Of a stretch of DNA of 64,000 nucleotides, positions 33,436 through 33,951 are shown one piece after another. The first letter of the stretch is position 1; each line of letters opens with the position of its first letter. Under the pieces are notes generated by a model. It did not search any database and was not told the origin of the DNA. It saw nothing but the letters and a program-made list of their open reading frames with translations. The stretch comes from Pseudanabaena sp. Chao 1811 (lineage in GTDB: Bacteria > Cyanobacteriota > Cyanobacteriia > Pseudanabaenales > Pseudanabaenaceae): positions 2,776,501 to 2,840,500 of the forward strand of contig NZ_CP101416.1 in assembly GCF_027942295.1 (NCBI RefSeq), written 5' to 3'. Position numbers and translations under genes: made by a program.

Positions 33436-33951
33436 ATGATGAATCCTGCCAATCGTGGTTTGAGTGCAGTTTTAACTCGCATTACCAATAAATTACAACA
33501 AGACTCGTTAGTTCATGATGCCCTACACGAACTAAGGCAGTTTCTTGATGTTGATCGTGTCGCTTTGTACTATTTTTATTCCCATTGGAAAGGTCAGGTG
33601 ACGTTTGAGGCTTTAAGCGATCACAGGTATTCGATCATTTGTTCGACGGGGGCTGATGAATGTTTTAAGCGGGAATATGCTGATCTATATTTAGCTGGGC
33701 GGATCTATTATGCTGACGATATTGAAACTGCGCCAATTAGCGATTGTCATCGAGACTTTTTGAAAGAGCTTCAAGTGCGCTCCAATTTGGTTGCGCCAGT
33801 GCTAAATTATGGCAAGTTATGGGGTCTACTAGTGGCTCATCATTGCCAAGAAGTGAAGAAGTGGCAGCCTTCAGATATTGTGCTTATGCGTCAATATTCG
33901 CAAGGCTTATCCGCAGCTCCTTCAATCCAGAGTGAATCGGACAATTTCTAG
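33436..33951 (+). CDS. Stand-alone GAF protein with DXCF cyanobacteriochrome motifs
   Basis: 171 aa consisting of one GAF domain (about 10-160) and nothing else. It carries DECF (D74-C76-F77), the second-cysteine motif of DXCF cyanobacteriochromes, and DCHRDFLKELQVRSNLVAPVL with C104-H105, the canonical bilin attachment pair. LWGLLVAHHC is also typical. A bound phycocyanobilin or phycoviolobilin and a photocycle are predicted. There is no output domain, so it would signal through a partner or act as a small pigment protein. ATG-ATG start at 33436. It overlaps the convergent glycosyltransferase gene by four bases. The upstream 11-bp repeats suggest regulation. Confidence 0.85.
   Translation: MMNPANRGLSAVLTRITNKLQQDSLVHDALHELRQFLDVDRVALYYFYSHWKGQVTFEALSDHRYSIICSTGADECFKREYADLYLAGRIYYADDIETAPISDCHRDFLKELQVRSNLVAPVLNYGKLWGLLVAHHCQEVKKWQPSDIVLMRQYSQGLSAAPSIQSESDNF

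Follow-up and report, generated by a model that had tools for sequence, protein, structure and literature searches.

Known systems

Research on cyanobacteriochromes (CBCRs) has treated them as sensory modules connected to kinases, cyclases or chemoreceptors. Their bilin-binding unit is a GAF domain, and in domains of the DXCF type, on the account drawn on here, phycocyanobilin (PCB) sits on the canonical cysteine and is usually converted to phycoviolobilin (PVB), while the dark state, which absorbs blue light, has a second cysteine bonded to C10 of the bilin and goes over to a green-absorbing photoproduct (PMC11284453). A lone GAF domain is available as miRFP670nano, in the source consulted an engineered protein with 18 substitutions (PMC6336887). 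Signalling by a small photoreceptor through contact with a separate protein is exemplified by PixD, a small, soluble BLUF protein described as forming a complex with the response regulator PixE that blue light takes apart (PMC5812497). When the reviews consulted speak of a "stand-alone GAF", a GAF without PHY is meant (PMC6798134, PMC5812497). No description of natural output-less CBCRs was found in the openly licensed PMC literature, but specialists may already know members of the stand-alone family considered below, and its novelty is thus not established.

A free-standing DXCF-type GAF protein

The protein is encoded in a 64,000-nucleotide stretch of Pseudanabaena DNA, referred to as the window, and its landmarks are as follows.

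33436..33951, + strand: stand-alone DXCF-type GAF gene, 171 aa, an exact open reading frame and the family member in the window
33568..33579, + strand: Y45-Y46-F47-Y48, the putative pocket tyrosine Y45 with the family-specific Y46 and Y48 (family alignment)
33655..33666, + strand: DECF motif, D74-E75-C76-F77 (residues 74-77), with second cysteine C76
33742..33750, + strand: DCH motif, D103-C104-H105 (residues 103-105), with the canonical bilin cysteine C104 and H105
33910..33927, + strand: C-terminal SAAPSI, a conserved cap at the point where multi-domain relatives continue their output helix (alignment)

The first-pass annotation had read this protein as a single free-standing GAF domain with DECF (C76) and DCH (C104-H105) motifs and no output domain. 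The open reading frame and Pfam bear this reading out: both motifs lie exactly at those positions, a single GAF domain covers residues 24-156 (2.5e-18), and no other Pfam family exceeds the cut-off, so that a linked kinase, GGDEF/EAL or chemoreceptor output domain is absent. The same holds across the family, GAF families being the sole Pfam matches in 63/63 stand-alone members scanned. By its sequence the protein is a free-standing dual-cysteine GAF of the cyanobacteriochrome type, and of the DXCF class. For a 171-aa protein that lacks an output domain, a trans-acting role is the natural reading.

Predicted fold and bilin pocket

An AF2 model built from the family alignment has a pLDDT of 88.5 and a pTM of 0.83. 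It matches CBCR crystal structures with Z of about 20-23; the best match is miRFP670nano (Z 23.3, 1.6 A over 151 residues), and blue-absorbing TePixJ (4glq) is matched at Z 22.4 and 28% identity; Foldseek agrees. Together with the Pfam GAF match these structural matches point to a phytochrome-type GAF fold. The model also predicts a long N-terminal helix, residues 4-37.

Conservation in the pocket is close to complete. C76, F77, C104 and H105 are invariant in 85/85 members, as are Y45 and H135; N117 is kept in 82/85, and D74 is Asp in 77/85, with Ser in 5, Glu in 2 and Arg in 1. With an offset of 18, Y45, H105, N117 and H135 align to miRFP670nano positions 27, 87, 99 and 117, which are reported to lie no more than 3.6 A from the bilin; D74 aligns to D56, which is reported to bond the pyrrole nitrogens (PMC6336887). 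Read from the sequence, C104-H105 is the canonical bilin cysteine with its histidine, and DECF at 74-77 places the second cysteine in Asp-Xaa-Cys-Phe. The home genome has one bilin reductase (Fe_bilin_red, 2.2e-73 in Pfam), so reduced bilin, presumably PCB, should be available. Shared fold and pocket conservation are no proof of function or photoactivity; the conserved residues nevertheless make DXCF chemistry likely, and a bilin photoswitch very probable.

Distribution and ancestry

The home genome is a single contig of 4.73 Mb. It holds 30 other matches at E <= 0.001. Each lies in an ORF of 399-2225 aa, and none exceeds 42% identity; the stand-alone gene is therefore single-copy and unlike its paralogues. 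Two more CBCR-like GAF domains occur in the window, at 7262-7702 and 12850-13308 (+), in frames of 1798 and 1319 aa.

Among 26 Pseudanabaena genomes searched at E <= 1e-35, 22 have a short-ORF orthologue, in frames of 172-212 aa and with 66-100% identity. A 23rd orthologue, in G024, is truncated where its contig stops (66 residues, 74% identity). Where there is no match, the recO locus carries other ORFs in G011 and G009, and in G008 the contig ends near it. In a sample of the class, 134/388 genomes match at E <= 1e-38. For three of them (G172, G233, G346) the only match lies in a long protein; the other 131/388, about a third, carry 132 matches in short frames of 136-267 aa, a lower bound at so strict a cut-off. 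At that cut-off the family is missing from 257/388 class genomes, and its absence from most of the class and from at least some genomes of the genus marks its function as dispensable. An in-frame stop interrupts 3/132 short loci (G013, G154, G377), and in a later profile search G154 alone. Two stand-alone copies occur in one genome of the class sample, G176; the second copy (L086, G176:C5:64500-77000) groups with Pseudanabaena members (98/69) and may represent a transfer.

The family can be told from its multi-domain relatives. With a profile built from 63 members, and among the matches listed, stand-alone ORFs (136-267 aa) score at least 208 bits, the lowest value coming from a partial locus, versus at most 193 bits in ORFs of at least 549 aa; the domain of the nearest multi-domain relatives scores about 167-189 bits. 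A look for viral copies returned 22 pattern stretches and 0 relatives, and six plasmid records gave weak matches of 27-34% identity. In a midpoint-rooted maximum-likelihood tree, 85 distinct stand-alone members form one clade (support 100/100, and recovered in 100% of the 200 bootstrap trees), apart from 49 GAFs taken from long proteins, a set that includes duplicates from overlapping loci and has 42 distinct members. Ten of the nearest multi-domain relatives were scanned, and each (10/10) is a histidine kinase with HATPase_c; the stand-alone gene may have come from a kinase gene that lost its kinase part, or the kinases may have come about by fusion.

Purifying selection acts on the gene, with dN/dS of 0.022-0.215 across the 12 pairs tried, of which two with saturated dS are indicative only. 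Ratios of this order (0.02-0.22), together with the orthologues in 22/26 genomes of the genus, exclude a chance ORF.

Genomic context

The surroundings of the gene comprise the following features.

32319..33167, - strand: presumably a recO-like gene, a name read from its sequence; divergent from the GAF gene and kept only within the genus
33351..33394, + strand: 11-bp tandem array, 4.0 copies, upstream of the GAF gene (TRF score 60, 78% matches)
33948..35042, - strand: convergent neighbour, taken to be glycosyltransferase-like, again a name read from its sequence; context

The stops of the GAF gene and of its convergent neighbour overlap at 33948-33951, in a CTAG palindrome.

The upstream array had been proposed as a sign of dedicated control. 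It is real, one of 9 TRF rows in the window that score >= 50, yet by-eye comparison did not find it upstream at 20 other genus loci, and L034, whose protein is 93% identical to the 171-aa protein, has two degenerate copies only. Since the array is not conserved among its genus relatives, dedicated control is unsupported and was rejected. Further tandem arrays lie in the window at 12185-12282 and 56206-56262, with units of 28 bp (x3.6) and 15/30 bp (x3.8).

Conserved neighbours, which the first-pass annotation had suggested looking for in other genomes, are kept within Pseudanabaena and not outside it. The recO-like gene adjoins 18 of the 82 loci analysed, and the genus loci likewise number 18/82; beyond the genus, every neighbour family in this set is limited to 7 loci or fewer. 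Neighbour orientation at the 63 non-genus loci is near random (upstream 35 same and 27 divergent; downstream 33 same and 30 convergent), and co-directional genes within 60 bp number 9 downstream and 0 upstream. A Pfam scan of 99 of the 125 neighbours found no family more than 4 times, with Response_reg in 3. Synteny was accordingly rejected as a guide to a partner, on the grounds of the near-random orientation and of the lack of a recurring neighbour family outside the genus. The GAF gene travels alone, and any partner should be encoded elsewhere.

Co-occurrence was tried for one family, BLUF, chosen by guess. Outside the genus, BLUF and the stand-alone GAF share 5 genomes versus 12.0 expected (p 0.006 across 388 class genomes), a figure confounded by phylogeny, as many BLUF genomes are close relatives. 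Within Pseudanabaena both occur, which contradicts the trend, and co-occurrence was set aside as evidence of a partner or replacement. The window itself has a BLUF domain at 62766-63044 (-), in a 369-aa frame. A second one, in a 376-aa frame, lies just past the window edge (G000:C1:2840674-2840952, -) and makes up a tandem pair with the first; by length, these proteins are perhaps photoactivated cyclases.

Family-specific features and proposed mechanism

Six positions (Y46, Y48, T56, I67, T71 and G72) reach 90% conservation or more within the family and stay below 25% in the 42 multi-domain GAFs. Y46 and Y48 are each present in 83/85 members versus 0 and 3 of 42, other CBCRs having Gln, Arg, Lys or other residues there. 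As Y45 aligns with the chromophore-contact Tyr, Y46 and Y48 should be directed to the other face of the sheet, away from the pocket. The C-terminus is also distinctive. In 85/85 members the chain ends 23-34 residues past W143: where relatives read ...LAIAIQQAELY... and onward, the family reads ...LATAPSI... or similar and then stops, and a Pro at 160-163 is found in 56/85 family members versus 0/42 multi-domain GAFs. The position of the stop and this C-terminal sequence indicate an early and conserved end to the helix through which the signal normally runs.

We propose, with somewhat more belief than doubt, that the protein is a soluble single-domain dual-cysteine bilin photoreceptor that acts in trans on a separately encoded partner, and use short cyanobacteriochrome (sCBCR) as a working name. 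The basis for this proposal is sequence, predicted fold, conservation, separate ancestry, the lack of an output domain and the lack of a linked partner. The chromophore, colours and photocycle that we infer would be as follows. PCB from the cell's bilin reductase would join C104, and its conversion to PVB is very likely, as in other DXCF domains. In the dark state C76 would add to C10 of the bilin, giving a blue-absorbing form; light would isomerise the bilin, the C76 bond would break, and a green- or teal-absorbing state would result. With no kinase, cyclase or chemoreceptor attached and with the output helix shortened, the switch should work in trans. Having neither an output domain nor a linked partner, it should pass its signal by contact, a surface change altering binding to a partner encoded elsewhere, as with PixD and PixE; this trans signalling by protein contact is proposed by analogy only.

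Alternative readings

The nearest multi-domain relatives suggest a different use of the domain, as a light-sensing regulatory subunit of histidine kinases whose N-terminal helix would pair with the GAFs of CBCR kinases and alter their output. That all ten of the relatives scanned are HATPase_c-containing histidine kinases, and that the predicted N-terminal helix (4-37) is long, agree with such a role. Such coupling uses the C-terminal helix, however, which is shortened here, and the family persists in genomes that have hardly any other CBCRs. Six genomes picked for few other strong profile matches were searched at E <= 1e-5. In G102 (4.9 Mb, completeness 100) there are three matches, of which the stand-alone gene scores 253.7 bits. 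The only two others are a CikA-like kinase with the architecture GAF-HisKA-HATPase-receiver, at 81 bits, and a protein laid out as FHA-GAF-GGDEF-EAL, at 35 bits. Aligned to the profile, the kinase GAF has Gly at the C104 position and no Cys at C76, and the FHA-GAF-GGDEF-EAL protein is without both cysteines, so that among matches at 1e-5 the stand-alone gene is the only GAF found in G102 with bilin cysteines. The same search gave three matches in all in G365 and 12 in G178. That the family is retained in genomes with no or almost no CBCR kinases speaks against its being a subunit of such kinases, although the argument comes from few genomes, selected for being CBCR-poor. We regard the subunit role as unlikely.

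The absence of an output domain, combined with a fully conserved pocket, would also suit a protein that binds bilin and does not signal, whether it buffers free PCB, carries it or takes it up as a photoprotective sink. The second cysteine, kept in 85/85 members, and the DXCF Asp, kept in 77/85, have roles in photochemistry and tuning that go beyond simple attachment, and Y46 and Y48, which mark the family, should sit outside the pocket; the chance of a mere bilin binder appears slim.

GAF domains in general bind other ligands, and this one might accordingly bind no bilin at all, its two cysteines serving redox sensing or its pocket holding another small ligand. The bilin-contact residues H105, D74, N117, H135 and Y45 are kept together with the cysteines, which makes this reading quite improbable. 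Homology of the domain to the GAFs of kinases and other long proteins might finally suggest that a longer CBCR gene is decaying and has left this fragment, a remnant of the kind that the first-pass annotation had named as fatal to its view, but the relatives are themselves short (all 132 family loci are short ORFs, in 131/388 genomes), form a single stand-alone clade with a near-constant C-terminal end, and with dN/dS of 0.02-0.22 show no relaxed selection, so that the remnant or pseudogene is refuted and retains next to no probability.

Significance and comparison with known systems

The trans-acting photoreceptor that we favour over these alternatives may have a wider meaning. We give even odds to the family being an ancient class of short photoreceptors that has so far escaped recognition. 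Its stand-alone dual-cysteine CBCRs, retained as a single gene across much of the cyanobacteria, would signal in trans only; they would stand beside short LOV and short BLUF proteins as their bilin counterpart, and some species would have no other cyanobacteriochrome. If true, a photoreceptor class would also signal by protein contact, having kept its bilin pocket and dropped its wiring. Genomes with almost no other CBCRs would be the places to find the response. At about 19 kDa the natural protein would be an experimentally simple case, and it lends itself to the development of small genetically encoded photoswitches and fluorescent tags.

Among multi-domain proteins the nearest relatives are the GAFs of cyanobacterial PAS/GAF histidine kinases; these are attached to a kinase, their output helix runs on uninterrupted, and they fall outside the stand-alone clade. 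DXCF CBCR GAFs such as the blue/green TePixJ share with the present protein the GAF fold, the DXCF cysteine, the Cys-His pair and the pocket residues, but the known ones sit in chemoreceptors, kinases or cyclases, whereas here the domain is the whole protein and belongs to a clade of its own relative to the GAFs compared. In form the protein most resembles miRFP670nano, derived from NpR3784, which is likewise a lone GAF of about the same size and is its best structural match; miRFP670nano, however, is near-infrared and biliverdin-binding and has a Tyr where DXCF domains have the second Cys. PixD, a short BLUF protein, differs in that its fold is unrelated and binds flavin, and in that no PixE-like partner was found here by neighbourhoods. 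The likeness to PixD is one of design: both are small soluble proteins without an output domain, and contact with a partner, here proposed only, would carry the light signal of the stand-alone GAF.
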